Assembly (NCBI GenBank): GCA_003222945.1
Contig: QHXM01000060.1
Coordinates: 1-45,349 of the forward strand
DNA from: Acidobacteriota bacterium
Lineage (GTDB): Bacteria; Acidobacteriota; Blastocatellia; Pyrinomonadales; Pyrinomonadaceae
DNA: 45,349 nt
Reading direction: 5' to 3'
The notes under the pieces are model-generated. The model did no database searches and was not told where the DNA came from. It saw nothing but the letters and a program-made list of their open reading frames with translations. The position numbers were made by a program, and so were the translations under genes. Positions 26,030 to 44,811 of the stretch are shown here, piece by piece; positions within the stretch are counted from its first letter, which is position 1, and the number at the start of each line of letters is the position of its first letter.

Positions 26030-29000
26030 ATGATTCGGATACTAAGATTCGTCGCTGTCAGCGCGATAGCTCTCGTCTTATTGAGCGTGCCCTTCTACAT
26101 CTCAAGCGCAGGCACGGGCACAAACACCGTTTCAGTCATCGTACAGTTCAAAGGTGACCCTGCGGCAGTCTATGCGGCTAAGGCGAAGAAGAGCGGATCG
26201 GCTCTATCTAACGATCAGATACGAGCCTACCGCGATCAACTCACCTTGACGCAGAATCAGTTTCTTACTGCGCTCCAGAGCAAGGGAATAAGTTCCCAAC
26301 TCCAAACAATCAACGTCAAGGACACGAACGGCGCGGTCGCTGGCAGCGTGCCTCTTCGCTACACACTCGTCTATAACGGCGTGACTTTGACCGTTCCAGA
26401 ATCCGCCGTCTCAACAATTGCAGGGATGTCGCAGGTGAAGAAAGTTCACTCGAACGGCGTTCTTCATCCAGACCTTGTAAAAAGCGTTGACTACATCGGC
26501 GCGACCAGAGTTTATGGAAAAAATCCGAACGACTTTACGCAGTTCGCAATCAACCCGGACGGCGACGAGGGGCAGGGAATTTACATCGCGGTCATTGACA
26601 CCGGGATCGATTGGACGCACCCGATGTTCGGCGGTGACCCTACGCCTCCGCGTCTTGGCGTTGCGCCAGTCTCTGCATCAGTGCCAACAAACCAGAAGGT
26701 CGTCTATTCGCTTCCGCTCGCTGACATTGTAACGGACGGCTTCGGTCACGGCACGCACGTCGCATCCGAAGCGGCTGGGTATTTGGCGAACGCTCCAGGA
26801 CCGGACGGCGTTCCCGGCACAGCCGACGACATTCCCATTCACGGCGTCGCGCCGCAAGCCAAATTGATGTCCTACAAAGTGTGCAGCGATACGCTCTCGA
26901 CTGTGAGCGAGGCTGGAGTAGCTTTGGGCGGGTGCTTCTCCTCGAACATCATCATGGCGATTGAAGACTCTGTGTCGCCGCAGACGGTTGACTTGCAGCC
27001 GAAGCCCGTTGCGAATGTCATCAACATGAGCCTTGGCGGAGCGGGTGGACCGGACGAACCGACCGCAGTCGCAGCCGACAACGCAACGCTTATGGGCGCA
27101 AGCGTCGTCGCTGCTGCCGGAAATTCTGGACCGGGCGAAGGGACCGTTGGTTCACCTGGCTCAGGCCGTCGCGTCATCTCTCCTGCGGCCAACTCAGACC
27201 CGGCATCGCACGCCAACTGGTCCGCAGAAGTTGTTTCGCCAAACTCTTTCAGTCAATCCAGAACAGGCGCAGTCACGCCCGCAAGCAGCTTCTCAACACA
27301 GCAGGGCTTCGCTCGCCTGAAGCTCTACCCGATGGCAGGAACTCCGGCTCCGCCCGATAGCTCTTTCGCGCAGTATTATGCGCTCGTTGATAACCCGACC
27401 GTGGCGTGGCCTTCGTCCGTGAGCGGTCGCATCGCGCTTATTAAAGATTCCGGCGTAGTGTCTGCGACCTTCTTCGACATCTGCACGCAGGCTGTCAACG
27501 CTGGCGCAGTCGGCGTCCTACTCGATAGCACCGTGACCAGCCCGACTGCCGTCAGGTGCTCAATCCCTGCGGCCAACATCATGGACGCGGACGCACAGGT
27601 TCTCATCCACGGCATGACTTCGGATGGCAGCACGCCAGCGAACGGCGCTCTCTCGCAGTTTCCGGTTCGCATGAACCCGGACTTCGACATCCCGTTCGTA
27701 GGCGACACAGCAATCTTTAGTTCGCGCGGTCCTGTTCAGGGTTACGGACAGGTGAAGCCGGACATCTCCGCTCCGGGCGTGAATATCTTAGGAGCAGTTC
27801 CGCCAGCGAGCGCCATCTCCGCGCTATTCGGCTTCTCAAACGGAGTCAACTACGCGGCCATCAGCGGCACAAGCATGGCAACGCCGCACACGGCTGGTTC
27901 AGTCGCGCTCATCAGACAGGCACACCCGGATTGGACGCCAGACACGATCCGCACCGTTCTAATCAACACAGCAACCAACATGCGCGACTTGAACCGCACG
28001 CCGAAGGCTGACGGCCTAAGCGCAAACGCAGTCAACGAGCAGGGCGGCGGTCTCATTGATGTCGCACATGCGATCAACGCGAAGGCTTTGATGGGCGTCG
28101 CGGGCGATGGTGTAAGCAAGCCTACGATCTTAGGCAGCCATTCATTCGGCGAAGTTCCCGTCACCAACAATCGCTCGACCACGACGCAGTCTGTTACGGT
28201 CACGATTCAAGACATATCGGGTCAGGGCGGGGCATACAATCTTGCAGTTGCCAACAACCGCGACCTGCAACAGAACGGCATCAGCGTTTCGACATCACAG
28301 TCGAGCGTAACAGTCCCAGCCGGAGGCACTGCCTCCTATACGGTCAACGTCACCTTTGACGGCAACGCTATACGCGACCCGAACGTTGCGGAGGCTATTG
28401 TTAGTGGCAACACTGTCTCTTACATACAGAGACCGCTAGAGTTGCAGTGGTACGTCACGGCTCAGCGCGCGGACGGCGGCGAGTCGCTCCGTATGCCTTT
28501 CTACTACAAGCCCGCTCCGTCCGTTCCATCGGCGGCGAATGTGACGAGCACTACGACACCGAACACCGGAACAATCCTGGCCGGAGACAACGACCTGCAA
28601 ACGGTTGCGGGCGTCACCTATCAGGACTTTCCTGTTCAGGCAGACTCGCAAACGCTCAAGCTCAGCGCCGATCTGGATTTCTTCCAGGTCGTCAACGGAA
28701 CGTTCGCAGACCTTGACCTCTACTTGTTAGACCCGGATGGTAACGTCGTAGCCAAATCAACCGCGCCGGGTGGACCGGAGCACGCTGACTATTCAGTCAC
28801 ACGCACGGGCACATACACCTGGCGCGTGACCGGATCATTGAACGCGGCGACTGACTTCACTCTGAACACAGTGAAGACGAGCACAACGGCTATCCCGCCC
28901 GCGCTACAGCAACCGGCAGGCGATTACGTTGATGCTTCAGGCAATCACGTTGACTTCGATGGCAGTTTCAACTTGCAGTGGCAGCCAACGGGTGGCGAGC

Positions 29001-29725
29001 AAGGGTTCGAGGTCGAGCAATCAACAGACAATCAGAACTGGCAGGTTGTAGGCAGCGTCGCGGGCAACACGAACAGCTTTGCAGTGTCTGGTCTGGCGGA
29101 CGCCACGACCTACTACTTCCGCGTCCGCGCTATCTATCCCGGACAGATTGGTAAGTACGTTACGCCGCCGAGCAACGTAATCAGTGTGCTCATCAATCAG
29201 CGCAATCTCGTTGACATCACGAACCAGACTAAGTCTGCGATGTCGAACGTCTCGTTCGCGGGTGGTGTCTTCCAGCTTGACCTGAACTTGACCAACCAGT
29301 CTGGCAACACGTACCTGCCTGTGCTCTCGTTCAACGTCGTCGGCATCCACTCGACATCGAACACCGTTAAGGCAATCAACCCAGACAGCGGCGGCGATGG
29401 AACGAGCACGGCGTCGGCGGCCACGTTCGATTACTCGCATCAACTCGGAGATGAACTGTTCAGTCCGAACGAGACAACGGGCAATCGAACATTAAAATTC
29501 CAGGACAGCGCATCCGAGATGTTCAGCTTCGATGCTCTCGTCACGGCTTACACGGGAACTTCCGGTTCATCAAGCTCTGGCTCGTCTGCTGCGACGCAAA
29601 CCGGTTCGAGCAGCACGAGCGGCGGTCTGACAAGTCCGCTATCGCAGATCAAAGCCGTGATGCGATTCACAGTGAATCCTCTGACCAAGAGTGTTTCGGC
29701 GCAGGTGGTGAGCTTGAAACTCTGA
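26030..29725 (+). CDS. Secreted subtilisin-like serine protease (S8), multidomain
   Basis: The 1231-residue exported enzyme has a signal peptide (about 1-27), an I9-like propeptide region (about 30-145, with VIVQFKGDP), then the S8 domain. The catalytic triad is Asp190 (AVIDTGID), His240 (GHGTHVA) and Ser615 (SGTSMATPHTAG). A long insertion between His and Ser contains a PA-type domain. Beta domains follow (about 690-850), then a pre-peptidase C-terminal-like domain (DLDLYLLDPDGNVVAKST), a fibronectin type III module (about 985-1055) and a final beta domain (1059-1231) with a Ser/Gly/Thr-rich loop. It degrades proteins outside the cell. GGAGA supports ATG 26030. The last domain recurs in the next gene. 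Confidence 0.93.
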   Translation: MIRILRFVAVSAIALVLLSVPFYISSAGTGTNTVSVIVQFKGDPAAVYAAKAKKSGSALSNDQIRAYRDQLTLTQNQFLTALQSKGISSQLQTINVKDTNGAVAGSVPLRYTLVYNGVTLTVPESAVSTIAGMSQVKKVHSNGVLHPDLVKSVDYIGATRVYGKNPNDFTQFAINPDGDEGQGIYIAVIDTGIDWTHPMFGGDPTPPRLGVAPVSASVPTNQKVVYSLPLADIVTDGFGHGTHVASEAAGYLANAPGPDGVPGTADDIPIHGVAPQAKLMSYKVCSDTLSTVSEAGVALGGCFSSNIIMAIEDSVSPQTVDLQPKPVANVINMSLGGAGGPDEPTAVAADNATLMGASVVAAAGNSGPGEGTVGSPGSGRRVISPAANSDPASHANWSAEVVSPNSFSQSRTGAVTPASSFSTQQGFARLKLYPMAGTPAPPDSSFAQYYALVDNPTVAWPSSVSGRIALIKDSGVVSATFFDICTQAVNAGAVGVLLDSTVTSPTAVRCSIPAANIMDADAQVLIHGMTSDGSTPANGALSQFPVRMNPDFDIPFVGDTAIFSSRGPVQGYGQVKPDISAPGVNILGAVPPASAISALFGFSNGVNYAAISGTSMATPHTAGSVALIRQAHPDWTPDTIRTVLINTATNMRDLNRTPKADGLSANAVNEQGGGLIDVAHAINAKALMGVAGDGVSKPTILGSHSFGEVPVTNNRSTTTQSVTVTIQDISGQGGAYNLAVANNRDLQQNGISVSTSQSSVTVPAGGTASYTVNVTFDGNAIRDPNVAEAIVSGNTVSYIQRPLELQWYVTAQRADGGESLRMPFYYKPAPSVPSAANVTSTTTPNTGTILAGDNDLQTVAGVTYQDFPVQADSQTLKLSADLDFFQVVNGTFADLDLYLLDPDGNVVAKSTAPGGPEHADYSVTRTGTYTWRVTGSLNAATDFTLNTVKTSTTAIPPALQQPAGDYVDASGNHVDFDGSFNLQWQPTGGEQGFEVEQSTDNQNWQVVGSVAGNTNSFAVSGLADATTYYFRVRAIYPGQIGKYVTPPSNVISVLINQRNLVDITNQTKSAMSNVSFAGGVFQLDLNLTNQSGNTYLPVLSFNVVGIHSTSNTVKAINPDSGGDGTSTASAATFDYSHQLGDELFSPNETTGNRTLKFQDSASEMFSFDALVTAYTGTSGSSSSGSSAATQTGSSSTSGGLTSPLSQIKAVMRFTVNPLTKSVSAQVVSLKL

Positions 29726-29738
29726 CGCTTTAACTACT

Positions 29739-29782
29739 CGATGAGAGCCAGACAGTAAGTAATGTGTGTCTGGCTCTTATCG
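29739..29782 (+). terminator. Hairpin between two secreted-protein genes
   Basis: CGATGAGAGCCAGACA (29739-29754) and TGTCTGGCTCTTATCG (29767-29782) pair at 15 of 16 positions around a 12-base loop. It lies 13 bases after the subtilase stop codon and probably terminates that transcript; the T-tract is poor. Confidence 0.6.
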
Positions 29783-29867
29783 ATTGTTCACATCGAGCGA
29801 TGAAGGGAATAGTTCGTCAAACCGAAGTTGAATGATTGTCATGAATGAGGCATTGAGGAGGCCAGCG

Positions 29868-32800
29868 ATGAAAGCGAGAGCTAGAAGCTATAATTTTAGA
29901 AGACCGCTGATACTAGGCATTATCTTAGCGATGGCAGCGACGGTTCTGTTCATGCCGCTCGTTCGCACAAGAGCGCAGAACTCTTCCTCTGGAACGATTC
30001 ACGCTACCGACACATCGGCAGTGACCTGGACGGGCGCGTCGCTCACGGCAGGAGCGGCCAATACTGAGTCCACATGTCAGGAGGGCATCAACTGCGACAC
30101 CTACACGCTGAGCGTAGCAGGCACGAAGGACGACTGGGCTGGAAAGCGCGTGCAGGTTCAATTGAACTGGCAGGTCAGCGCAAACGAATACGACATCTAC
30201 GTTCATCAAGGCTCGCTCAGCGGACCACTTGTGACTTCTTCGCTTCAAGGCCCTGGTCTAACAAACCAGGTGGCATTCATTGACGTGTCACAGTGGGGCA
30301 CAGGCACTTTCGTCATACACGTTGCTTACGACACAGCTTTCGCAGCGCCTGCGGACCATTATCAGGGAGCTATCTCGTCGGTCGCAGAGACGCCTACGCC
30401 TCCGCCAACAGCGCCCCAGGATGCAGGTCCGAAGGTCGGCTACCAGAACTTTGAAGCGCCCGGCGTTCTGACAAACGTGACTCAAACAAGCTCAGGCGCA
30501 GCGACCGTCGAATACATGGGACGCGGCGCGGGCGAGCCTTCAATCGGAGCGAACTGGACGACAGGCGTTGTCAACTTCCAATCGGACCTTGAAACTCTCT
30601 TCGTAACATTCAACGACAGTCCGAGCGGAACAACCGCAAGTTGGGTTAATCGTCCCGCACCGACTTCTCAGTTTATAGATTCCGATCCCATTGGTTTCAC
30701 TGATCGCCAGACGGGGCGCGTCTTCGCAGGCGAACTGACACTGGTCTCGCCAACCTGCAAGACATCCTTCTCGGACGATGACGGCAAGACCTGGGTGCCG
30801 ACTAATGGAAGCGGCATTGCGTCGGGCTTTGACCACGAAACAATCGGCGGCGGACCATTTCACGCGCCACTGACCAGACCAACGGGCGTTCCCGGTCTTT
30901 ACCCGAACGCAGTCTATTTCTGCTCGCAGGATTTGGAGACGGCCTTCTGCTCGCGCTCAGATGACGGCGGTGTCACATTCGGACCATCCATTCCGATGTA
31001 CATCTTCACTCAATGCGTAGGCATACACGGGCACGTGAAGGTCGGACCAGATGGCACGGTCTATGTTCCGAACAACAACTGCAACGGCGAAGGCGCTGTC
31101 GTCGTTTCCGAAGATAACGGAACGTCCTGGAGCGTTAACCCTGTTCACAATGCGACGGTTGACACATCGCCAGGCACAGGCGATCCCGCGCTTGCGATTG
31201 ATAATAATGGTCGCGTCTATTTCGGTATGGGAAGCGCAAACTCCTCGGCAGCCGTAGCAACCTCTGACGATCACGGCAAGACATGGAACAACATCTACAA
31301 CGTCAGCGATGTTTACGCTCTGAAGAACGTAAGAGACCCGGCTGCGGTTGCAGGCGACGCCGGACGCGCGGCCATAGCCTTCTACGGCTCGACCACACCG
31401 GGAGTTGGCGAAGGCCCAGATTTTCCTGGCGTCTGGCATCTGTATGTAGCCGAGACGTTTGACGGAGGACAGACTTGGACGACAACGGATGTAACGCCCG
31501 GCGCTCCAATTCAGCGCGGAGGCATCTGGACGCAGGGCGGCGCAAACATCAGCCGCAATCTTCTGGACTTCTTCGACATCACGATTGACAAACAGGGTCG
31601 CGTTCTAATCGGCTACGTCAACGGCTGCGCAGGTGGAGCGTGCGCGCAGGCTGCGCCGAACGCTTCGGGCAACGCTTACTCGGCGGTTGCGACCATAGCT
31701 CGTCAATCCAACGGTCGTCGTCTGATTGCTCGATACGATCCGCCGAATGCTATGAGTGCAACTTCCACGCCTGGAATGCCACTCGTGACCGAGCGCAGAA
31801 TTGATAACGTGGTCCATCTCGGCTGGTCCGAAGCGGACACGGGCAACTCTGCTATTCAAAGCTACAAGATCATGCGCGGCACGACGAGCGGCGGCGAGAC
31901 TCTTCTTGCGACCGTTCCGGGAACGCAGACGACTTATGATGACACGACGGCCACGGACATAAGCAAGACCTACTACTACGAGGTGCTCGCAGTAAACGGC
32001 GTCGGCACATCTGCTGCGAAGAACGAAATCGTCGCGCCTTATGTCGGCGACACTTGCAACGGTGTCATCATTCACCGCAACGATCCGTCGCACCCAGAAG
32101 CTTACGGCGGCACAGTCGTTGCGCCTCCGCTTCCATCACTCTTAATTGATTACGTCGCCGTGGGCGAGCCTACGGGAACGAACAACCTGATGTTCAAGAT
32201 GAAAGTCGGCGACCTGAGTTCTATTCCGCCTAACAGCCGTTGGCGAATAGTATGGGACTCGAAAGAGGCTGAAGGTCAGCAATATTATGTCGGCATGACC
32301 AGCGACGCGAGTGGAGCTACGAGCTTCGAGTACGGCACGCTCGCAGACGCAGGCGTTCCAGCCATTCTCATCGTGAGCGAAACGATGCGCGGAACGCCCG
32401 ACCCGGCGAGCAACTACCAAAAGGACGGCACGATCACCATCTACATGCCGAAGTCTGCCGTCGGCAATCCGCAGCCCGGCGACCTGCTCGGCGCTGTGAA
32501 CGGCAGGACCATAACAGCCGACACTCCTGCGACCAATACGCTTGAGCGTTCGACAGTGTTCGTGGACCACACGTTCGTCAAAGGCCAGGCAGACAATAGC
32601 TATCCGGCTGCGACCTACATGATCGCGGGCAACAACTCTTGCTCGCCACTCATAGAGCAGATGGTCAATCAACTCGTTGGCCTGCAAGCGAGCAATCCAA
32701 CGGCAGCGCCGGGCCTGAGCGGTTACGATCTCAGCATCAAGGACACTTCAGCGCAGACAATTTACACGCCGCTGAGCGCCGAAGTTGCCCAACTGAGTTC

Positions 32801-33176
32801 TACGTCCGGCAAGGTCACGGTTGCGAACGCAGACAACGGACTGAAGGGAGCAGGCGCGTCCTGGGACTACTCTGCGAGCGTTGGCACAGACAACGTGCTC
32901 TCCTCGAATGAAGTTTCAGGCGCACGCACGCTTCGTTTCAACAACCCGAATAATGAACCGTTCTCTGTAACGTTCAACGTCATAGGCAGCCTTGCTCGAA
33001 CCAGCACAAGCGGGTCTGGTGGCACTCAGACGAGCAGTAACAGCAGTAGCACGACGACAAGCACTTCGTCTGGAACAACCAGCGCGCTGCCTACTGGAAC
33101 GATTAAGAGCGCGGTCTTCAAGGTGACTTATAACCCGCTGCTCAATTCTGTGAAGATTGAGTTGGTGAGTTTCTAA
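29868..33176 (+). CDS. Secreted sialidase-like (BNR/Asp-box) propeller protein with fibronectin domain
   Basis: I start at ATG 29868 because GAGGAGG lies 6 bases upstream; it gives 1102 residues with a signal sequence (RPLILGIILAMAATVLF). Two earlier in-frame ATGs lack a ribosome-binding site. A beta module (about 35-180) resembles pre-peptidase C-terminal domains. A sialidase-type propeller follows, with several Asp boxes: SDDDGKTW, RSDDGGVTF, SEDNGTSW, TSDDHGKTW, ETFDGGQTW. Next come a fibronectin type III module (about 635-715), a beta-rich region of ~200 residues and a C-terminal beta domain (949-1102) shared with the subtilase upstream. The Arg triad of true sialidases was not confirmed, so the substrate is open. 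Confidence 0.82.
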   Translation: MKARARSYNFRRPLILGIILAMAATVLFMPLVRTRAQNSSSGTIHATDTSAVTWTGASLTAGAANTESTCQEGINCDTYTLSVAGTKDDWAGKRVQVQLNWQVSANEYDIYVHQGSLSGPLVTSSLQGPGLTNQVAFIDVSQWGTGTFVIHVAYDTAFAAPADHYQGAISSVAETPTPPPTAPQDAGPKVGYQNFEAPGVLTNVTQTSSGAATVEYMGRGAGEPSIGANWTTGVVNFQSDLETLFVTFNDSPSGTTASWVNRPAPTSQFIDSDPIGFTDRQTGRVFAGELTLVSPTCKTSFSDDDGKTWVPTNGSGIASGFDHETIGGGPFHAPLTRPTGVPGLYPNAVYFCSQDLETAFCSRSDDGGVTFGPSIPMYIFTQCVGIHGHVKVGPDGTVYVPNNNCNGEGAVVVSEDNGTSWSVNPVHNATVDTSPGTGDPALAIDNNGRVYFGMGSANSSAAVATSDDHGKTWNNIYNVSDVYALKNVRDPAAVAGDAGRAAIAFYGSTTPGVGEGPDFPGVWHLYVAETFDGGQTWTTTDVTPGAPIQRGGIWTQGGANISRNLLDFFDITIDKQGRVLIGYVNGCAGGACAQAAPNASGNAYSAVATIARQSNGRRLIARYDPPNAMSATSTPGMPLVTERRIDNVVHLGWSEADTGNSAIQSYKIMRGTTSGGETLLATVPGTQTTYDDTTATDISKTYYYEVLAVNGVGTSAAKNEIVAPYVGDTCNGVIIHRNDPSHPEAYGGTVVAPPLPSLLIDYVAVGEPTGTNNLMFKMKVGDLSSIPPNSRWRIVWDSKEAEGQQYYVGMTSDASGATSFEYGTLADAGVPAILIVSETMRGTPDPASNYQKDGTITIYMPKSAVGNPQPGDLLGAVNGRTITADTPATNTLERSTVFVDHTFVKGQADNSYPAATYMIAGNNSCSPLIEQMVNQLVGLQASNPTAAPGLSGYDLSIKDTSAQTIYTPLSAEVAQLSSTSGKVTVANADNGLKGAGASWDYSASVGTDNVLSSNEVSGARTLRFNNPNNEPFSVTFNVIGSLARTSTSGSGGTQTSSNSSSTTTSTSSGTTSALPTGTIKSAVFKVTYNPLLNSVKIELVSF

Positions 33177-33258: not shown

Positions 33259-35967
33259 TTACTTCACTCGCGGGTCCGGCTTCACTAGAAGCGGCTGCAT
33301 GTAGCTCTTGCCGTCAACCGTAAGCTTTACAGTGTAGTTGCCGGGCAGCACTGTCGGAACACGCGGACCAAAAATGTTGCCGCCACCTCCTGGACGCCCT
33401 GCGCGATCAGGCGGCGGTGTGGGGCGCAAGTCCCAAATCCAGCGATGCATTCCTGCCGTCGTGGAAACAATTTGAGGCGGGCGCACCCAGGATACAGGGA
33501 TGTCAAGAGCATCCGGGTTGACGGGAGGCTGCTTGTCTTCACTCGAATACTTGCGAATGCTTGCGCCCGAAGGATCGAGTATCTCAATCACTACGGAGCC
33601 GGAAGCGGCGGACTTCAAATAGTAATCAATCATCGCGCCATACGGCGGATTGTCCGCTAAGGGTTCGTCGCGCGGCTGCGGGGTTCCGTTCTCGCTCGAT
33701 TGCGGGATGTTGTAAGCATCGGCAGGATGGAAAAGATATGCACGCGCTCTTACAACTTCATCGCTTAATTGGCGAAGCGGCGTGATGTCGTCCAACACCC
33801 AGAAGCCGCGACCGTGCGTGGCTACTATCAAATCGTCATCGTGAATTACCAGATCGCGCACGGACACGGGCGGCAGGTTGAGTTGAAGCGATTGCCAGTG
33901 GTCGCCGTCGTCGAATGAGACGAAGACGCCAAGCTCTGTGCCTGCGAATAGAAGCCCGCGCCGCTCAGGGTCTTCCTTCACAGTCTGCATATAGACGCCC
34001 TTCGGCAATCCAGTAGTAATCTTCTGCCAGGTCTTACCCGCATCGCGCGTGCGATAGATGTACGGCTCGTTGTCTTCAAGACGATGACGATCAACCGCTG
34101 CGTAGGCTTCACCAACATCAAAATGCGAAGCCTCCATCATTGAGACCTTGCTCCACGCAGTCAGTTCCAGCGGCGTGACGTTCTGCCATGTCTTGCCGTC
34201 GTCGTTCGTCAACTGAATGTAGCCGTCGTCAGTTCCAACCCAGAGCAAAGACGCGCGCAAAGGCGATGGCGCGATTGTATAGATGACGCCGCGTCGCTTC
34301 TCTGTGGGCGCGTCTGCGGCAGTCGCTTCATCCAGATTCGGCGGAACGCCAGGGTCTTCGCGCGTGAGGTCTGGACTCAGTTGCGTCCAACTCTCGCCGC
34401 CGTTTGTGGTCCTGAAAAGAAACTGGTCGCTGAAGTAGAGCGCGTGCAGGTCTGCCTGCGAGAAGACGAGCGGGAGCGTCCATGTATGGCGCTGAGGTGT
34501 CGCCGCAGGCAGGTTGCGTTCGGGCGAGACGTTTATGATTTCGCCTGTGACGACATTGCAGCGCGTGACGCGGCCTCCTAAAAGAATTTCCGTGTGAAGC
34601 GGGTCGGGCGCTGTGTAGTCTGATTCGCCGCCAGCGCAGATGGGCGACCAGTCGTGCATGGAGATTTCAGCCAGATTGCTTCGCGTGGGCACACCGATTG
34701 AGCCGCTATCCTGCTGCGCGCCCGTCGCCCAGTAGGGAAAACGATTGTCCGCCGCGACGTGATACATCTCGGCGGTCGGCTGGTTGTACCAACTGCTCCA
34801 GGTCTGCGCGCCGTCTTCTGTGACGATTGCGCCCTGATCGCTTCCAAGAATCATTCGATTCGGATCGTCCGGGTAAATCCATAGTTGATGATAGTCGTCG
34901 CCGCCGGGCGCGCCCTTTATCGCGGTCCAGTTCTTGCCCGCGTTCACAGAGCGATAGAGCGATGTGTTCGAGACGTAAACCGTATCCGCGTTCTTCGGGT
35001 CAACCGCAATCTTGCAGAAGTACCAGCCACGTCCCCAGATGCGTTTATCGTCGGAGATGAGCGTCCACGTCGCGCCCGCATCGTCCGAGCGATAAAGACC
35101 GCCAGCCTTAGCATCAACGATTGCATAGACGCGCAGATGGTTTGTAGGCGATACGGCGATTCCAACGTGACCAAGAGCTTCTGTCGGGATACCGTTGGTT
35201 AACGGTTGCCAGGTGTTTCCGCCATCCGTTGATTTGAATAGGCCGCTGCCCGGTCCATAAGACGGCGGGTAGATGCTCCAGGGCGGACGGCGCGTGTTCC
35301 AAAGCGTCGCGTAGATGATCGAAGAGTTCTGTGGGTCAAACGCTAAATCAATCGCTCCGACGTTCTCGTTCTTGAATAAAACTTTTCCCCAAGTGCGGCC
35401 ACCGTCGCGCGTGCGATAAATTCCGCGATCAGGATTAGCGCCGTAAACGTGGCCGAGCGCTGCGACGAAGACCAGGTTTGGATTCTTAGGGTCAACGATG
35501 ACGCGGCCAATCTGTCGCGTGTTATCGAGACCTATGTGCGTCCAGGTCTTTCCAGCATCCGTTGATTTGTACATGCCGTTGCCGTAAGAGATTTGCGAGC
35601 GCATGTCCGCTTCGCCCGTGCCGACATAGACTATGTTAGGGTCGGACGGCGCGACGCCGATTGCTCCGATTGATGCGATGGGTTGCGAATCGAAGACGGG
35701 CGTCCACGTCCGCCCGGAGTTGATAGTCTTCCAGACGCCTCCGCCGACCGAGCCGAAGTAGAAAACTGTGGGCTGGCCCGGCACGCCGGAGACAGCGTTG
35801 ACACGGCCTCCGCGAAAAGGACCGATCAAACGCCAGCGCAAACCTGAATAGGCGCTCTGTTCAATTCGCGCCTGAGCAAGCGCGACAGGCATGAACGCAC
35901 TAAACGTTACGACAGCAATAACTAGCAACGCTAATAAGCACACAAAGGCTTTCCGAATTCCAGACAT
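33259..35967 (-). CDS. Secreted sortilin/BNR-type beta-propeller protein
   Basis: ATG 35967 follows GGGAGGAG at 6 bases, giving 902 residues; the frame is open 11 codons further but has no start signal there. After a signal peptide (KAFVCLLALLVIAVVTFSAF...ALAQ) the protein has repeated Asp-box motifs, KTINSGRTWTPV, KSTDAGKTWTHI, RTRDGGRTWGKV, KSTDGGNTWQPL, RSDDAGATWTLI, across about 35-740. They form two propellers of the VPS10/sortilin-like, also called glycosyl-hydrolase BNR, type. RWRLIGPFRGGRVNAV at the start is characteristic of a group of large exported bacterial proteins. The final ~160 residues form a beta module (SVVIEILDPSGASIRKYSS, MHRWIWDLRPTPPP). No catalytic residues are recognised; peptide or glycan binding is likely. 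Confidence 0.85.
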   Translation of the reverse strand: MSGIRKAFVCLLALLVIAVVTFSAFMPVALAQARIEQSAYSGLRWRLIGPFRGGRVNAVSGVPGQPTVFYFGSVGGGVWKTINSGRTWTPVFDSQPIASIGAIGVAPSDPNIVYVGTGEADMRSQISYGNGMYKSTDAGKTWTHIGLDNTRQIGRVIVDPKNPNLVFVAALGHVYGANPDRGIYRTRDGGRTWGKVLFKNENVGAIDLAFDPQNSSIIYATLWNTRRPPWSIYPPSYGPGSGLFKSTDGGNTWQPLTNGIPTEALGHVGIAVSPTNHLRVYAIVDAKAGGLYRSDDAGATWTLISDDKRIWGRGWYFCKIAVDPKNADTVYVSNTSLYRSVNAGKNWTAIKGAPGGDDYHQLWIYPDDPNRMILGSDQGAIVTEDGAQTWSSWYNQPTAEMYHVAADNRFPYWATGAQQDSGSIGVPTRSNLAEISMHDWSPICAGGESDYTAPDPLHTEILLGGRVTRCNVVTGEIINVSPERNLPAATPQRHTWTLPLVFSQADLHALYFSDQFLFRTTNGGESWTQLSPDLTREDPGVPPNLDEATAADAPTEKRRGVIYTIAPSPLRASLLWVGTDDGYIQLTNDDGKTWQNVTPLELTAWSKVSMMEASHFDVGEAYAAVDRHRLEDNEPYIYRTRDAGKTWQKITTGLPKGVYMQTVKEDPERRGLLFAGTELGVFVSFDDGDHWQSLQLNLPPVSVRDLVIHDDDLIVATHGRGFWVLDDITPLRQLSDEVVRARAYLFHPADAYNIPQSSENGTPQPRDEPLADNPPYGAMIDYYLKSAASGSVVIEILDPSGASIRKYSSEDKQPPVNPDALDIPVSWVRPPQIVSTTAGMHRWIWDLRPTPPPDRAGRPGGGGNIFGPRVPTVLPGNYTVKLTVDGKSYMQPLLVKPDPRVK

Positions 35968-36083
35968 AGAGTCTCCTCCCTGTTTGGACGAAGGATACAC
36001 TAAACCTGTCGAAGTTCACCAAACTAACTGTTCGCGTCTGTTTTGCTGAGGTGGGAAAGTAATCCGGCTTTGGTGTCCGCAAC

Positions 36084-37466
36084 TCAAATGTCGAGTTGAT
36101 AACGCTCTGCCATTCTGTAAAGCGTCCTGCGATTGATGCCTAGAATTTTCGCTGCGAGTGTTCGATTGCCGCCTGTGACTTCCAGAACGTGTTGCAGGTA
36201 GCGCCGCTCTACCTCATCTATGGTCGGAAGACCGGTGAAGTATGAAGTGAGATCATCTGGTTGCGGGACGGCGCGCTTGCGCTCCATCTCGTAATCGCGC
36301 ACTTTCGACGGCAGATTCTCAAGCGTGATGCGCCCTCCCTGTTGAAACGCGATTGCTCGCTCAATCACGTTCTCAAGCTCTCGCACATTGCCCGGCCACG
36401 AATAACTTTTCAGCACTCTTAACACGCGATCATCAACAATGGGCGCAGCTTGTCCTTCGGGCGTGTGCTTGCGAATGAGATGAGCGACGAGGAGCGGTAT
36501 GTCGTCCCTGCGCTCTCTCAAGGGCGGAACGTGTATGTGTATGACGTTCAGGCGGTAGAGCAGATCACGGCGAAACGCGCCGGAATCGGAAAGATTCTCA
36601 AGGTTGCTGTTGCTCGCAGCGATGATGCGCGCCGCAACCTTTATAGTCGAACTGCTGCCGACGGGCATGACCTCTCGCTCCTGAAGAACGCGCAGCAATT
36701 TAACCTGTAGAGCAGGACTCGTCTCGCTTATCTCATCCAGGAATACTGTGCCGTCGCCCGCCTCCTCGAATATGCCGCGCTTGTTTGCGATTGCTCCCGT
36801 GAAAGAACCTCTGACGTGGCCGAAGAGTTCCGATTCGAGAAGCGTTTCGGTTAAAGCGCCGCAGTTGACGGCGACGAAGGGAGCGCTCGCGCGTTTACTG
36901 TGAGTGTGAATAGCGCGAGCTATCAACTCCTTGCCTGTGCCGCTCTCGCCCGTGATGAGAACGGCTGCGCGCGAGTCCGAAATACGCGCGATTGTTTTGT
37001 AGATTTCGAGCATAGCGTGAGAGCGCCCGACCAGACCGGAGGTGAATTCGTAATCGTTGAGCTTGCTCGATCCGTTTGACTGACCGTGTGCGCGGGCATC
37101 CAGCGCGCGTCGGATGGTCATGACCATCTTGTCTATGTCGAAGGGCTTGCTGATGTAGTCGAACGCACCTTCACGGACAGCGCGAATCGCCGTGTCAATT
37201 GAGCCGAAGGCAGTCATCAGAACAATTGGGGTCAGAGGATGTTCGCGCCTGACGTGGTCTAAGAGATTGAGGCCGTCAAGCTGTGTCTTCATCCTGATGT
37301 CGCTCAAGATTACGTCGGGCGATTGTTTGCCGAGCGAAAGAAGCGCGGCATCTGCGCTCTGCTCAAAGGAGGTTGAGAAGCCCTCGCGCTCGAAGACTTC
37401 GCAGAGCAGTTCGCAGGTTACGGGGTCGTCGTCAACGATCAGTATTTGATGATTCTCAGACGGCAT
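36084..37466 (-). CDS. NtrC-family sigma-54-dependent response regulator
   Basis: The 460-residue protein has a receiver domain (about 6-122; phosphorylated Asp56, acidic pocket Asp12-14), an AAA+ ATPase (Walker A GESGTGKE at 173-180, GTVFLDEI for Walker B) and a Fis-type helix-turn-helix (GNRTLAAKILGINRRTLYRM) at the end. The loop that contacts sigma-54 is GSFTGA at 220-225, with Ser in place of the usual first Ala. It would be phosphorylated by the kinase encoded upstream and activate sigma-54 promoters. Its start overlaps the 3' end of the kinase gene by 11 bases, so the two are translated as a unit. Targets are unknown, but a sigma-54-like promoter occurs upstream of the divergent gene at 39134. 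Confidence 0.95.
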   Translation of the reverse strand: MPSENHQILIVDDDPVTCELLCEVFEREGFSTSFEQSADAALLSLGKQSPDVILSDIRMKTQLDGLNLLDHVRREHPLTPIVLMTAFGSIDTAIRAVREGAFDYISKPFDIDKMVMTIRRALDARAHGQSNGSSKLNDYEFTSGLVGRSHAMLEIYKTIARISDSRAAVLITGESGTGKELIARAIHTHSKRASAPFVAVNCGALTETLLESELFGHVRGSFTGAIANKRGIFEEAGDGTVFLDEISETSPALQVKLLRVLQEREVMPVGSSSTIKVAARIIAASNSNLENLSDSGAFRRDLLYRLNVIHIHVPPLRERRDDIPLLVAHLIRKHTPEGQAAPIVDDRVLRVLKSYSWPGNVRELENVIERAIAFQQGGRITLENLPSKVRDYEMERKRAVPQPDDLTSYFTGLPTIDEVERRYLQHVLEVTGGNRTLAAKILGINRRTLYRMAERYQLDI

Positions 37467-38712
37467 TCGTGGTCACGCTCTCAATCGTGGAAGAAGGTTG
37501 CGCCTCGACAGAGAGAGGGAAGGTGAGATGAAAGGAAGCGCCGCGCTTCTGATCTTTCAGAACCTCTATGCGCCCGTAGTGCGCCGTCATAATCTCGCGC
37601 GCAATGGCTAGACCGAAGCCGCTGCCGGAAGCTTTGCTGGTCCGCATGGGTTCAAAGAGATGATCCAGAATTTCCGGGTCAATGCCAACGCCTGTATCGT
37701 GGAATGTGAGTTCGGCCAGGCCTTTGTTCCTGTTCAAATGAGAGATTATCTCTATGCGTCCCCCTTCGGGCATGGCCTCTACGCTGTTGTTGATGATGTT
37801 CATGAAGACCTGTTGAAGACTGTCGCGGTCAGCTTCGACATCAGGCAGGTCAGTGTCCAGGTTAATAGACGCTGTGATGCCGTGCTTGTCCAGCATTGGA
37901 CTGACGAGCCAGAACATTTCGCGTATAAGTGTATTGAGGTCAGTGGGGCGTAAAGCGAACTCTCTCTTATGCGTTCTCTCAAGAAGGTTCTTGACCGTTG
38001 CTACGATTGAATCGAGCTGCTTGTTGATTATCTTTACGCGGCGGCGTGTGTCGTCGTCCGCCGGATGATTACGCGCCAGAAGTTTCAGATGCCCTGAGAT
38101 TGCATTCAAGGGAGTTCCTATGTCGTGGGCAAGCGAGGCGGCCATCTGGCCCACGGCGGCGAGTCTTTCAGAGCGCGTCAGTCGCTGCTGTGTTTGAAGC
38201 AGAGTGCTGTTTGCAGTTGATAACTCTCTGGTCGCAGCGTCCACCTCCTGACGCAATTCTACATTGAAGCCGCTGATCTGCTTGAGCAAAGCTTCGCGCT
38301 CCTGCTCTCGCTCTCTGATCCTCTCCATCAATTTTTTGCGAGAAGCGTTGAGCCAGCTTATCAGGATTGAGACGGCTGTAAAGACACCCGCTCGTATGAG
38401 GTTTGCGAGCGTGAGTTCAATTTTGTAGAAAGGCGGGACAAAGAAATAGTCCATAGCAAGGAGGGAAAGGAGCGTAGCGAAAAGCCCAGGCCCGAAGCCT
38501 CCATAGAACGCTGCGATCATGATGGCCGCTAAAAAGAGCGCCGAAGCAGCCCTGTCAACCAAAGGCCACAGAAGGTCTGCGAAAAGCGCAGCCACAGCGA
38601 CGAGCACAACGGCTGCCGCGTAATATAGTAATCGCCCGCTCTTACTGTTCAGCGTCATAGGTTCAACCGATGGCTTAATGCCATAATCACTTAACCGCTC
38701 GCTTGTAGGCAT
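37456..38712 (-). CDS. Membrane sensor histidine kinase with KdpD-like (DUF4118) membrane domain
   Basis: The 418-residue kinase has four predicted membrane helices (about 27-122) in a block of the DUF4118 type, with GGFGPGLFATLLSLLAMDYFF. A coiled coil (123-180), a dimerisation domain with phospho-accepting His196 in SLAHDIGTPLNAISGHL, and a HATPase domain (IINNSVEAMPEGG, DTGVGIDPE, GSGFGLAIAREIM) follow. It has no large periplasmic domain, so the signal is probably sensed in the membrane or cytoplasm. ATG 38712 follows AAAGGAG. It forms an operon with the NtrC-type regulator. The next gene is divergent. Confidence 0.94.
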   Translation of the reverse strand: MPTSERLSDYGIKPSVEPMTLNSKSGRLLYYAAAVVLVAVAALFADLLWPLVDRAASALFLAAIMIAAFYGGFGPGLFATLLSLLAMDYFFVPPFYKIELTLANLIRAGVFTAVSILISWLNASRKKLMERIREREQEREALLKQISGFNVELRQEVDAATRELSTANSTLLQTQQRLTRSERLAAVGQMAASLAHDIGTPLNAISGHLKLLARNHPADDDTRRRVKIINKQLDSIVATVKNLLERTHKREFALRPTDLNTLIREMFWLVSPMLDKHGITASINLDTDLPDVEADRDSLQQVFMNIINNSVEAMPEGGRIEIISHLNRNKGLAELTFHDTGVGIDPEILDHLFEPMRTSKASGSGFGLAIAREIMTAHYGRIEVLKDQKRGASFHLTFPLSVEAQPSSTIESVTTNAV

Positions 38713-39551: not shown

Positions 39552-42137
39552 ATGCGTAATCGAAGACGCCTAAGAACTGTAACTCTGTTCTGCGCCGCTG
39601 TCGCGCTCCTCCTCTTCTCAATATCGCAAGTCGCAACCGTGCTTGCAGACTCTACTGCGGGAAGTATCAAAGGAACTGTAAGCGCTACAAATGGAGATGT
39701 GAATGCGCGATCAGTCCTGCTCGCAGGAGCGCGATTGACACTCACCAATCTGGACGTGCCTGATAAGATATTCAAGGCAACTACAGACGAAGCTGGCAAC
39801 TTCATCTTCACGGACCTTCCAGAAGCATCTTACCTTTTGACGGCAGAGGCAACGGGCTTTTCAACCTTCACGAAGGAGATAAAACTCTCGGCTGGCGCAA
39901 CTCTCGATCTAGACATCGTTATGACGGCCACTGTCTCCGAAAGCGTAACGATACGCGACGAGGAAGGCATACTGAGCCGAGGCGAGACTACAACAGCGAA
40001 CACCATTCGCTCAAAGACGCTCGCGGACATGCCTCTTCGCGCGGAGAATTATCAGAGCGCTATGTTGCTCACGCCCGGCGTCGTGCGAGACAAAGACGGA
40101 GGCGATCACCTGAAGGGCGCGCGAGCGGGCCAGAGTGCTTACACCGTGAACGGCGCGGACGTTACCGATCCGGTCACAGGCAATCTGGCTTTCGACATTC
40201 CGCTCGAAGCAGCACAGAGCGTGCAGATTGAAGAGAACCCTTATTCGGCGGAGTTTGGACGATTGACTGGCGGCGCTACGAACCTGGAGACGAAAGGCGG
40301 CGACAATAAATTCAAGGTAAACGCCACGCGCTTTTTCCCGACCTTTCGCAACATCATCGGCGGAAAGCTTGATTCTTTCAGACCGCGCCTGACTTTGAGC
40401 GGTCCAGTCATTAAAGATCGCCTCTTCTTTCTGCAATCGTTTGAATACCGCTTTACGCGCGCTCGCGTGACGAGCCTGCCTGAGCCGCACAACGATACAA
40501 CCTCGGAGAACATCAACTCCTTCACGCAGATTGATCTAAACATTAACAAAGCCAACCGGCTTAAGTTCATCGCAGCCTTCTTTCCCGAAAGAGCACACTT
40601 TCTAGGCTTGAATACTTTCAACCCGCAGGAGGTCACGCCGAATCTGAAAGAGGCGGGCGCGCTCTTTTCACTTTCAGAGCAGATGATCTTTGGTGATGCA
40701 TCGTTTCTTACTTCAAGCCTCAGTTACAGAACCTTAGACGTTGATGTCTTCGCTCAAGGCGCTCAGCCTATGACCGTGCGTCCTGATGGGAACAGCGGCA
40801 ACTATTTCGCGGATTCGAGCCGACAATCAAGAAGGATTCAATGGCAAGAGACATACTTCGCAAGACCCTTAAACTTTGAAGGTCAGCACTCTGTAAAGCT
40901 CGGCGCTGAGTTTAATAAGACTAGCGTGTCTGGACTCTTTCACGACCGCTCGATTCTGATTCGACGCAGCGACAACACCTTAACCGAGCGCATAGACTTT
41001 GCTGGCGACGGGAAGGTCTCGCGCACGACTAACGAAGTCGCCGCCTTCATACAAGACCGCTGGGTAGTTAATAAGAGGCTGACGGTTGATGCTGGCTTTC
41101 GCTTTGACCGCGACAGTATTGCGAAACATGATAACTTTGCGCCGCGTCTTTCCTTCCTTTATCTGCCCTTCAAAGGCGACCGGACCGTTTTGCGCGGAGG
41201 CGTAGGACTCTTCTACGACCGCGTCCCGCTCTCTGTAGGAAATTTCGAGTTCGATACGGACGAGGATGATGCTCTCTTCGCTTCTTCTGCTGATGCAGTC
41301 TCGCGCTCGAAGAGTTTTACGCAGATGCCCCGTCGCATCGTCACTACGTTTGCCGCAGACGGCACGACGATTCTTGACGGTCCGCGACGTTTCAAAAACC
41401 GCGTGGAGAATCTTCAGCAAGACCCGTACAGCATCAGGTGGAATTTGCAACTCGACCGCGAGTTGACGAAGGACTTGACGGCGCGCATAGGCTACATGCA
41501 GCGCTCAACGAAGAACGATCTGATAATTGTGCCGCGCATGGGAAGACTCAACACAGGAAGACTCGTTCTGACTCCTCTGGGTCGTTCTCAGTATAAAGAG
41601 ATACAACTGCTCGCAACCTACTTTAGCCCTCGCGTCGGCAACTGGACCGCCTCTTACACCTGGTCTAAGACGGAAGGCGATCTGAACACGATTGATAATT
41701 TCCTGGGCGACACTCCGGCTCTTGTCATTCAACCGAACGAGTACGCACCACTGCCATTCGACGCGCCCCATCGTTTCTTAGCCTACGGCCAGATAAAGGC
41801 GCGCTTCGGTCTGATAGTTTCTCCTTCGATAGAGATTCGTTCGGGCTTTCCTTTCTCGCTCATCAACGAGCGGCTTGAGTTTGTTGGCGCGAGAGATCGT
41901 GCAGGGCGTTTTCCGACTTACGTTTCGCTGGACCTGCAAGTCACGAAAGATTTCAAAATCCCGGACTTCGTTCCGCGCTTCGGCGGAAAACGCGCACGCA
42001 TTGGCGCAGCGGTCTTCAACCTGACGAACCATTTCAACCCGCGCGATGTCCAGAACAATACGGCGAGCGCACATTTAGGCGAGTTCTACAATAGCCTTGG
42101 CACGAGCGTGCGCGGCAAGTTCGAGATAGACTTCTAA
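39552..42137 (+). CDS. TonB-dependent receptor-like outer-membrane protein with carboxypeptidase-regulatory domain
   Basis: The 861-residue protein has a signal peptide (about 1-32), a carboxypeptidase-regulatory-like beta domain (about 38-130; TTDEAGNFIFTDLPEASYLL) and a plug region (about 150-240; LPEASYLL is followed by the plug motifs YQSAMLLTPGVVR and AYTVNGADVTDP). The rest is a long beta-barrel ending FEIDF, with the aromatic last residue that outer-membrane barrels need for assembly. This is the Oar-like receptor architecture that is abundant in Acidobacteriota. It takes up or binds a large or poorly soluble substrate. No clear TonB box is visible. The next gene is a paralogue, so tandem duplication is likely. 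A possible operator lies upstream. Confidence 0.88.
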   Translation: MRNRRRLRTVTLFCAAVALLLFSISQVATVLADSTAGSIKGTVSATNGDVNARSVLLAGARLTLTNLDVPDKIFKATTDEAGNFIFTDLPEASYLLTAEATGFSTFTKEIKLSAGATLDLDIVMTATVSESVTIRDEEGILSRGETTTANTIRSKTLADMPLRAENYQSAMLLTPGVVRDKDGGDHLKGARAGQSAYTVNGADVTDPVTGNLAFDIPLEAAQSVQIEENPYSAEFGRLTGGATNLETKGGDNKFKVNATRFFPTFRNIIGGKLDSFRPRLTLSGPVIKDRLFFLQSFEYRFTRARVTSLPEPHNDTTSENINSFTQIDLNINKANRLKFIAAFFPERAHFLGLNTFNPQEVTPNLKEAGALFSLSEQMIFGDASFLTSSLSYRTLDVDVFAQGAQPMTVRPDGNSGNYFADSSRQSRRIQWQETYFARPLNFEGQHSVKLGAEFNKTSVSGLFHDRSILIRRSDNTLTERIDFAGDGKVSRTTNEVAAFIQDRWVVNKRLTVDAGFRFDRDSIAKHDNFAPRLSFLYLPFKGDRTVLRGGVGLFYDRVPLSVGNFEFDTDEDDALFASSADAVSRSKSFTQMPRRIVTTFAADGTTILDGPRRFKNRVENLQQDPYSIRWNLQLDRELTKDLTARIGYMQRSTKNDLIIVPRMGRLNTGRLVLTPLGRSQYKEIQLLATYFSPRVGNWTASYTWSKTEGDLNTIDNFLGDTPALVIQPNEYAPLPFDAPHRFLAYGQIKARFGLIVSPSIEIRSGFPFSLINERLEFVGARDRAGRFPTYVSLDLQVTKDFKIPDFVPRFGGKRARIGAAVFNLTNHFNPRDVQNNTASAHLGEFYNSLGTSVRGKFEIDF

Positions 42138-42240
42138 AGGGATTTTGCGCTGAGAGATTTTTAGGATATGTTATAGGTTTGACGGGTTAACCAAAATATA
42201 GACCGTAGCATCGCCGTAAAAGAATCCCAGACTCGTGTTC

Positions 42241-44811
42241 ATGCAGCTTATTGATAAAAAATTTCCGTTCCCTCGTAGCTTGCAATCTTCAAGCTCCGCA
42301 CTCTTTCTCTTCTGCCTGCTTGTAATCTTATTTATCTGCGCTCCCGTCTGCGCACAGCAAACAACAACCACTCCAACTGCCCTGCGCGTAACTGTGACGG
42401 ACGCCGGGCAGCGCGCACTGCCGGGCGCGAGCGTTCAGCTTTTCAGTTCTGCATCTGCGCTCGTAGCGACCGCGACGACAGACGAGCGCGGCGTTGCGGA
42501 TTTCGCAGGCACAATTCCGTCTGCCGCTTACAAGCTTCGCGTCGAGAGCAAAGGCTTTGAGACGCTCACGAAAGAAACGGTCATCATAAAGGAAGGTACG
42601 CTCACAGAGATTGCCGTCACGCTCTCAGTTGCATCTGTAGCAGAGAACGTGACCATCTCAACTACGCCCGATGAAGCGATGACGGTTGAATCAGGAGCGT
42701 CAACGGCGTCGGGCAATCTTCAGCGCAACGCCCTTCAACGCCTGCCGCTCGCAACTGCGCGCGTTGATGAAGCGCTGCCGCTCGTGCCCGGAGTCATTCG
42801 CTCTCCGACGGGTGAGATAAGCATAGCGGGCGCGACCGAACAGCAGAGCGCGCTTCTTGTCAACGGCCTTAACGCTTCTGACCCATCGAGCGGAAACTTT
42901 CGATTGAATCTTCCGATTGATTCAGTCGAATCCGTGCAGGTCTTTCAGCAACCTTACACGGCGGAGTACGGTCAGTTCATAGGCGGCGTCACGAAAGTTG
43001 AAACGAGACGCGGCGGCGATAGCTGGCACGTAGAGTTGAACGATTTTTTCCCGGACCTGCGATTCAAGGGAGGCAAGATCGTTGGCATTGCCGAAGATAC
43101 TCCGCGACTGAACTTCAATGGACCGTTGATAAAAGACAAGCTCTTTCTCTCGCAATCCCTCACCTACACTATTGCGAAGCAGCCCGTTCGCGGACTCTCT
43201 TTTCCTGAGAACGAAACGAAGACGGAATCGCAGAGCTACTTTTCGCAGTTCGATTTGATCTTAAGCCATCGCCACACGCAGGCTTTCACCCTTGGCTATT
43301 TCCCTGAGCGCGACCAGTTCGTCAACCTAGACTTCTTCCGCCCGCAAGGTGTGACGCCAAACTACAGGCAGAAGAATTACGTCTTCACGGCGCGCGACCA
43401 TTTCGAGATTCTTGGTGGGCTGCTTGAATCGTCCTTCTCTTTCAAACGATTCAACGCAAATGTTTGGGGACAAGGAGCGAATGAGCAGACGCTGACGCCG
43501 ACCATAGAGCTTGGCAACTACTTCGCAACGCAAGACAGACATTCGCGCCGCCTTGAGCTATTCGAGGTCTATACATTCCCGACTGAAAAATTTCTGCTCA
43601 TGAGACACGAGATCAAAGTAGGAGTTGATTTCAACAGCGTCACGAGCAGTTTGACTTACGAAGCGCGCCCCGTGAACATCTTACGCGAGGACGGAACGCT
43701 GGCCGAGCGCATTGTCTTTAGAGCGCCGAGGCTGATTGAAGCAGACAACCACGAGTACGTTGGATTCGCGCAGGACCGCTTATTCGTTCGCCCTAACTTA
43801 AGTTTCGATCTTGGCTTGCGCTACGAGGACCAGCGCATCGCCGAGGAGATGAATCTATCGCCGCGCTTTGGCTTCGCCTGGTCTCCGTTTGAAGGCGACC
43901 GGACCGTGCTTCGCGGAGGCATAGGACTCTTCTATGACAAAGTTCCACTGAACCTTCGCAGCTTCGCGCGCTATCCTTCGCGCACTGTGACGCGCTATAG
44001 TGCGGACGGCGTGACGGAGATTGATAGCACGCACTTCTTCAACGTGCTCGTTGACACTGCGCCGGTTGAGCCGCTCGATTTCAGAAGAAGACCTACGACT
44101 GCGGGCTTCGTTCCTGAGAATTTGAGATGGAATATACAGTTGGATCAGATCGTAACGCCCTGGCTTAACCTGCGCGCGAATCTTACAGCGAGCCGGACCA
44201 ATCACATCTACATCGTCAACCCTGAGCTTGATTTCAGAGGGCGCAGCGGCATAGTTCTTCGCTCCGCAGGACAGGCCACCTATCGCGCTCTTGAGTTGAC
44301 CGCGCGCTTTCGTCTTCCGAACAAGGACGAGATATTCGTCTCCTACGTGCGCTCGCGTGCGCGCGGAGACCTGAATGATTTCAACAGCTACTTTGGAGAC
44401 TTCGGTCAGCCCGTCATTCGCGCCAATCAATACTCAAACTCTCCGACAGACGTTCCGAACCGGCTGATCGCGTGGGGCACAATTCATCTGCCGCATCGCG
44501 TCACGGTCTCGCCAATCCTGGAGGCGCGAACAGGGTTTCCTTATTCTGTCGTGGATGCAGAGCAGAACTTCGTGGGCGAGCGCAACTCTGACCGGACGCG
44601 CTTTCCCGCATTCGTCTCGCTCGATGCGGAGTTTGCCAAAGAGTTTCAGGTGACGAAAAAGTACGGCGTGCGATTGTCCTTGCGTGGCTTTAACCTGACG
44701 GACCATTTCAACCCGCGCGACGTTCACGCAAACCTTGCAGACCCGCAGCTCGGTCAGTTCTTCGCGCCCTATCGCCGATTTTTCACCGGCGGCTTCGACA
44801 TACTCTTTTAA
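42241..44811 (+). CDS. Second TonB-dependent receptor-like protein, paralogue of the gene upstream
   Basis: I start at ATG 42241 (856 residues); a GTG two codons earlier is open but less likely. Signal sequence (ALFLFCLLVILFICAPVCAQ), carboxypeptidase-regulatory domain (about 40-125; TTDERGVADFAGTIPSAAYK), plug (LVNGLNASDPSSGNFRLNLP) and a beta-barrel ending GGFDILF are present in the same order as in the preceding gene. Local identity is evident: RPQGVTPNYRQKNY versus NPQEVTPNLKEAG, FEGDRTVLRGGIGLFYDKVPL versus FKGDRTVLRGGVGLFYDRVPL, and FNPRDVHANLADPQLGQF versus FNPRDVQNNTASAHLGEF. The two are about 100 bases apart and probably co-transcribed or duplicated together with their promoters. No ribosome-binding site is clear. 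Confidence 0.87.
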   Translation: MQLIDKKFPFPRSLQSSSSALFLFCLLVILFICAPVCAQQTTTTPTALRVTVTDAGQRALPGASVQLFSSASALVATATTDERGVADFAGTIPSAAYKLRVESKGFETLTKETVIIKEGTLTEIAVTLSVASVAENVTISTTPDEAMTVESGASTASGNLQRNALQRLPLATARVDEALPLVPGVIRSPTGEISIAGATEQQSALLVNGLNASDPSSGNFRLNLPIDSVESVQVFQQPYTAEYGQFIGGVTKVETRRGGDSWHVELNDFFPDLRFKGGKIVGIAEDTPRLNFNGPLIKDKLFLSQSLTYTIAKQPVRGLSFPENETKTESQSYFSQFDLILSHRHTQAFTLGYFPERDQFVNLDFFRPQGVTPNYRQKNYVFTARDHFEILGGLLESSFSFKRFNANVWGQGANEQTLTPTIELGNYFATQDRHSRRLELFEVYTFPTEKFLLMRHEIKVGVDFNSVTSSLTYEARPVNILREDGTLAERIVFRAPRLIEADNHEYVGFAQDRLFVRPNLSFDLGLRYEDQRIAEEMNLSPRFGFAWSPFEGDRTVLRGGIGLFYDKVPLNLRSFARYPSRTVTRYSADGVTEIDSTHFFNVLVDTAPVEPLDFRRRPTTAGFVPENLRWNIQLDQIVTPWLNLRANLTASRTNHIYIVNPELDFRGRSGIVLRSAGQATYRALELTARFRLPNKDEIFVSYVRSRARGDLNDFNSYFGDFGQPVIRANQYSNSPTDVPNRLIAWGTIHLPHRVTVSPILEARTGFPYSVVDAEQNFVGERNSDRTRFPAFVSLDAEFAKEFQVTKKYGVRLSLRGFNLTDHFNPRDVHANLADPQLGQFFAPYRRFFTGGFDILF

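Follow-up and report, generated by a model that had tools for sequence, protein, structure and literature searches.

We find that two adjoining genes in the window (the whole stretch of 45,349 nucleotides analysed here) encode otherwise unrelated exported proteins that end in homologous domains, and that this tail is a real, lineage-specific C-terminal domain, new to Pfam and NCBIfam. Its best explanation, to which we give a probability of roughly one half (0.52), is that it is a lineage-specific accessory Ig-like sandwich that would position co-encoded exoproteases and propellers outside the cell.

Two adjoining carriers and their tails

The first carrier, identified by open reading frame and domain search, is an exported S8 subtilase of 1231 aa (26030..29725, + strand). 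It comprises a signal-like segment, an S8 domain with a weak PA-like insert (residues 181-651), a PPC domain (~876-935), an Fn3 domain (979-1038), and the tail (1058-1231; 29201..29722, +). The tail itself consists of an Ig-like core, a disordered Ser/Gly/Thr-rich loop (29564..29632, +; residues 124-146 of the predicted model described below), and a C-terminal hairpin bearing the motif RFTVNPLTKSV (29654..29713, +), with strands at model residues 154-161 and 166-173. Downstream on the same strand, after a gap of 106 bp, lies the second carrier, an exported BNR/Asp-box propeller protein of 1114 aa (29832..33176, +), whose tail occupies 32652..33173 (+). The coordinates of both carriers are those of mechanical ORFs.

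The initial annotation held that the two tails align throughout, and they are indeed homologous over their full length (residues 1059-1231 of the subtilase, 29204-29722, +; residues 949-1114 of the propeller protein, 32676-33173, +). BLASTP aligns them with 38% identity over 165 columns (E = 4e-16). When the low-complexity loop is left out, their local alignment score is 133, against a mean of 32 for shuffled sequences (SD 6.2, maximum 71 of 2000; z ~16). The limits first proposed for the subtilase domain (1059-1231) stand, but those of the propeller domain (949-1102) do not: Its true end is residue 1114, since the protein is 1114 residues long. The closing hairpin described for both proteins is present in the subtilase as VMRFTVNPLTKSV; in the propeller protein the corresponding segment is VFKVTYNPLLNSV, and the pattern common to the two is only T.NPL...SV. 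A third copy of the tail in the window genome (G000) is found on another subtilase, at G000:C58.

Neither tail has a meaningful family match in Pfam or NCBIfam (in NCBIfam, none at E <= 1), and comparison of PDB sequences with the tail profiles, including profile A2, gave chance matches only. Among open-licence papers, we found no description of the tail domain.

Elsewhere in the window, a Vps10/sortilin-type propeller without the tail (33259-36000, -) is convergent to the tailed pair, and a sigma-54 response regulator and histidine kinase pair (36084-38712, -) adjoins exported-protein genes. Tandem paralogous outer-membrane proteins resembling TonB receptors, with carboxypeptidase-regulatory domains, are located at 39552-42137 (+) and 42235-44811 (+).

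Predicted fold, carriers, and distribution

An AlphaFold model of a 176-residue construct (29195-29722), made with an alignment of 16 tails, predicts an Ig-like sandwich, the disordered loop, and the closing hairpin (residues 154-173), with a mean pLDDT of 85 and a pTM of 0.78. In the 24 tails measured, the loop is 28-41 residues long and consists of 81% Ser, Gly, Thr, and Ala. Foldseek searches with the tail models return weak generic sandwich similarities, none of them at E <= 0.001. Conservation is not higher in the hairpin than in the core (2.13 and 2.30 bits per column, respectively), and its spread over the sandwich fits a fold rather than a short signal.

The tail is carried by S8 subtilases, M36 fungalysins, BNR propellers of up to 2684 residues, and a Vps10-like propeller. 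It is therefore common to unrelated exported modules, as had been proposed from the pair in the window. A restriction to secreted proteins, offered at that stage as a check by profile search, also fits what we see: Every carrier with a complete N-terminus has a hydrophobic signal-like segment, as judged by a hydropathy scan and not by a signal-peptide predictor. Out of 52 matched frames, 46 have a tail match that stops no more than four residues short of the frame's end (44 when two short fragments are left out). Among the six exceptions, L044, L094, and L095 seem to be cut or frameshifted, L101 and L111 end soon after the core, and L047 is an internal relative. The L095 case (genome G135) is a subtilase with its tail split over two frames (L095:3228-5642 and 4918-5211), probably frameshifted or decayed.

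In the M36 carriers (for example, L041:6701-7573 and L103:37-909), the two halves of the tail are separated by 98-139 residues. The insert sits in the tail loop and aligns at E = 2e-16 to 6e-30 with the S8 carriers' PPC region. A low-confidence model of one M36 tail (pLDDT 65.6, pTM 0.46) shows the core, a disordered linker, a separate jelly roll at the PPC, a second disordered linker, and the hairpin. These proteins thus show that a binding-type domain can occur naturally within the loop of a second one.

Profile A2 matches 31 of the 119 genomes of the family Pyrinomonadaceae, or 30 once G016 is dropped, whose short and internal match we rejected as a tail. Tail genomes have one to four copies each. 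In a sample of the phylum, 12 out of 396 genomes match, nearly all of them Pyrinomonadaceae, together with G048 (from another family of the same class) and weak matches elsewhere. The match in G276 was taken as chance, the host protein being unlike any tail carrier, and a match in contig C106 of the window genome (E = 0.31) was set aside as noise in a phage-tail-like protein; the locus in question (L004; G000:C106) encodes phage-tail-like proteins. A search of genome contigs with profile A1 found nothing, profile A2 varies too much to serve as a scanning pattern, and a search of plasmids for the tail gave no match.

In a tree of 47 tails, those of the M36 carriers form one group (96/94), as do those of the propellers (100/100). 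The S8 tails need two label changes, and the whole tree needs five, compared with a mean of 22 for shuffled labels. Since tails sort by carrier, the tail was joined to a few carrier lineages and then inherited with them, and the strict C-terminal position therefore amounts to no more than a few independent observations. The S8 carrier has nine close matches in 36 relatives, each of them at a locus with a tail.

Relatives of the core occur outside the complete tail form. Propeller proteins in G378 and G014 end in a tail-like core without the loop and hairpin, and core-like domains are found inside other exported proteins at L047 (G007; residues 115-234) and L144 (G076). The initial annotation had regarded hits at internal positions and in cytoplasmic proteins as grounds for giving up its claim; internal hits do exist among distant core relatives, in exported proteins. 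Although distant, such relatives weigh against a signal that works only at a C-terminus.

Gene neighborhood and the role of the tail

In G000, G003, G010, G035, G134, and G141, the gene after the S8 carrier, on the same strand, encodes a tailed propeller. The commonest untailed neighbor of tailed carriers is an S8 subtilase. One such neighbor has an SLH match at its C-terminus (E = 3.6e-6), and the others were called SLH subtilases from their resemblance to the last third of the copy in the window genome. Examples of this neighbor are L033:67-2646 and L046:3046-5739. The SLH subtilase adjoins a tailed protease in 19 fetched loci, some of them from closely related genomes; it is directly upstream in 18 and directly downstream in one (L036). 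It is missing from the locus in the window and present at G000:C58.

When genomes are tallied, 27 have both the tail and the SLH subtilase, three the tail only, five the SLH subtilase only, and 83 neither (P = 2e-18, Fisher's test). The test ignores relatedness and linkage, so this co-occurrence may reflect one gene cluster gained or lost as a unit. The tally uses a cut for the SLH subtilase of about E = 1e-27, which drops weaker paralogues and was set after the list was seen. Tail genomes without an SLH-subtilase match are G010, G139, and G141, and the SLH subtilase is thus no strict requirement. Among the five genomes that have the SLH subtilase but no tail, three are affected by truncation: G004 and G110 have an M36 carrier cut by a contig end, and in G012 the subtilase itself is cut. 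Of the co-occurring transport or protease gene for which the initial annotation proposed a search, we recover the protease, in the form of the SLH subtilase, but see no transport gene that recurs near the carriers.

Because the tail is C-terminal on other secreted proteases too and usually lies beside the SLH subtilase, a role in attachment or binding, as part of a secreted protease set, is more likely for it than one as a new export signal. We suppose that the carriers would be exported by Sec through their N-terminal signal. Outside the cell, the sandwich may serve as a docking or binding platform, so that carriers would be kept at a common place, be it the cell surface, the matrix, or a protein substrate. 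The flexible loop would then lie exposed and could accommodate linkers or a PPC domain that binds substrate; in protease E495, PPC domains are known to bind protein substrates (PMC3327674). In this cluster, the member tethered to the wall would be the SLH subtilase, which may activate or trim the others. It counts against this accessory role that nearly all complete copies end within four residues of the stop, as would also be expected of a C-terminal signal, although the tree points to few independent fusions.

Such a signal is the substance of the alternative that survives best, which we nevertheless consider unlikely: that the tail acts as a signal for outer-membrane export or surface sorting, in the manner of the CTD of the type IX secretion system (T9SS), carriers passing by Sec to the periplasm, where a putative translocon would recognize the hairpin. 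The strict C-terminal position on four unrelated exported modules is in keeping with this, as is the predicted build, in which an Ig-like sandwich and a long loop precede two last strands at the very end. The T9SS signal of RgpB is contained in the last 22 residues, which make up the last two strands (PMC4804311). However, a genome has only one to four possible cargos, about a quarter of one family has any, and the tails stay with their carriers in the tree. The hairpin, moreover, is not found on other proteins. We rejected it as a free-standing signal, since its DNA pattern has 24 matches in the family, of which 22 coincide with known tail loci and two are apparently due to chance (one inside a TonB receptor, the other in a short frame that is not a tail); a reversed control pattern has three. 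The T9SS cargo-tail model (TIGR04183) has no match in G000 and scattered weak matches in six out of 36 genomes, including G010. The SprA_N model matched none of 36 genomes, but control genomes were silent too, so that this negative says nothing for or against a T9SS translocon. The low copy number, the sorting of tails by carrier, a hairpin conserved no better than the core, the internal core relatives, and the failure to find a dedicated transporter leave one of the readings suggested in the initial annotation unsupported, namely a sorting tail of general use, comparable to those of T9SS or PEP-CTERM. A sorting role is possible, but it is not supported.

We find it less probable again that the tail is a C-terminal propeptide, removed at the cell surface during maturation by the SLH subtilase or by the enzyme itself. 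The tight linkage with a subtilase gene and the flexible Ser/Gly/Thr linkers would suit such removal, and protease E495 partly loses its C-terminal PPC domains as it matures (PMC3327674). However, the propeller carriers, which are not proteases, keep the tail, G010, G139, and G141 have tails in the absence of an SLH-subtilase match, and conservation across the sandwich suggests that it functions in the folded state. About as doubtful is a passive folding or stability cap without partner or ligand; the Ig-like fold and its weak similarity to many unrelated sandwiches would be expected of a cap, but the tail is common to unrelated modules whose genes lie together, and a partner gene recurs in their cluster. 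Least probable is that the tail is the recognition signal of a new acidobacterial surface-attachment pathway, in which the sandwich of exported carriers would be recognized outside the cell and the SLH subtilase would sort or process them; a dedicated signal processed in this way is possible but unlikely.

Whatever the role, these results define a new domain family, along with a conserved set of genes for the SLH subtilase, a tailed protease, and tailed propellers, in a soil lineage that is mainly known through metagenomes. Protease export and retention near the cell are poorly known there, and the locus gives this question a name and a testable handle.

Comparison with known systems

The tail shares its fold class with generic bacterial Ig-like domains, such as CARDB (3idu) and a cellulose-binding domain (6qfs) in the Foldseek list, and like Ig-like accessory domains it is, in the predicted model, a two-layer beta-sandwich on exported multidomain proteins. 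In contrast to generic domains of the CARDB, CBM2, or Fn3 type, with which it has no significant sequence or structure match, it is strictly C-terminal and has its own loop and hairpin. The PPC domain (PF04151) is likewise a C-terminal accessory of secreted proteases; the S8 carriers have it, and in the M36 carriers it is nested in the tail loop. The Pfam model does not match the tail itself, however, which is a separate Ig-like domain.

PEP-CTERM and LPXTG tails consist of a short motif, a transmembrane helix, and a basic end. As here, they are C-terminal tails on unrelated exported proteins, but the tail sequences and model point to a folded sandwich without a hydrophobic helix or basic end.

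The T9SS CTD (TIGR04183; RgpB, PMC4804311) resembles the tail: It is an Ig-like sandwich that forms the very C-terminus of proteases and other proteins exported by Sec, and a long loop precedes its last two strands. From the predicted model and hydropathy, the tail too is a C-terminal Ig-like sandwich on putatively Sec-exported cargo. The tail differs in having no sequence match to a T9SS tail model (NCBIfam, E <= 1) or to a solved CTD (profile A2 against PDB sequences), in its length (~170 residues, compared with ~73 in RgpB; PMC4804311), and in its one to four copies per genome. Were the tail a surface-attachment signal, the SLH subtilase would parallel in function the PorU that acts with T9SS tails, the two being of separate origin.
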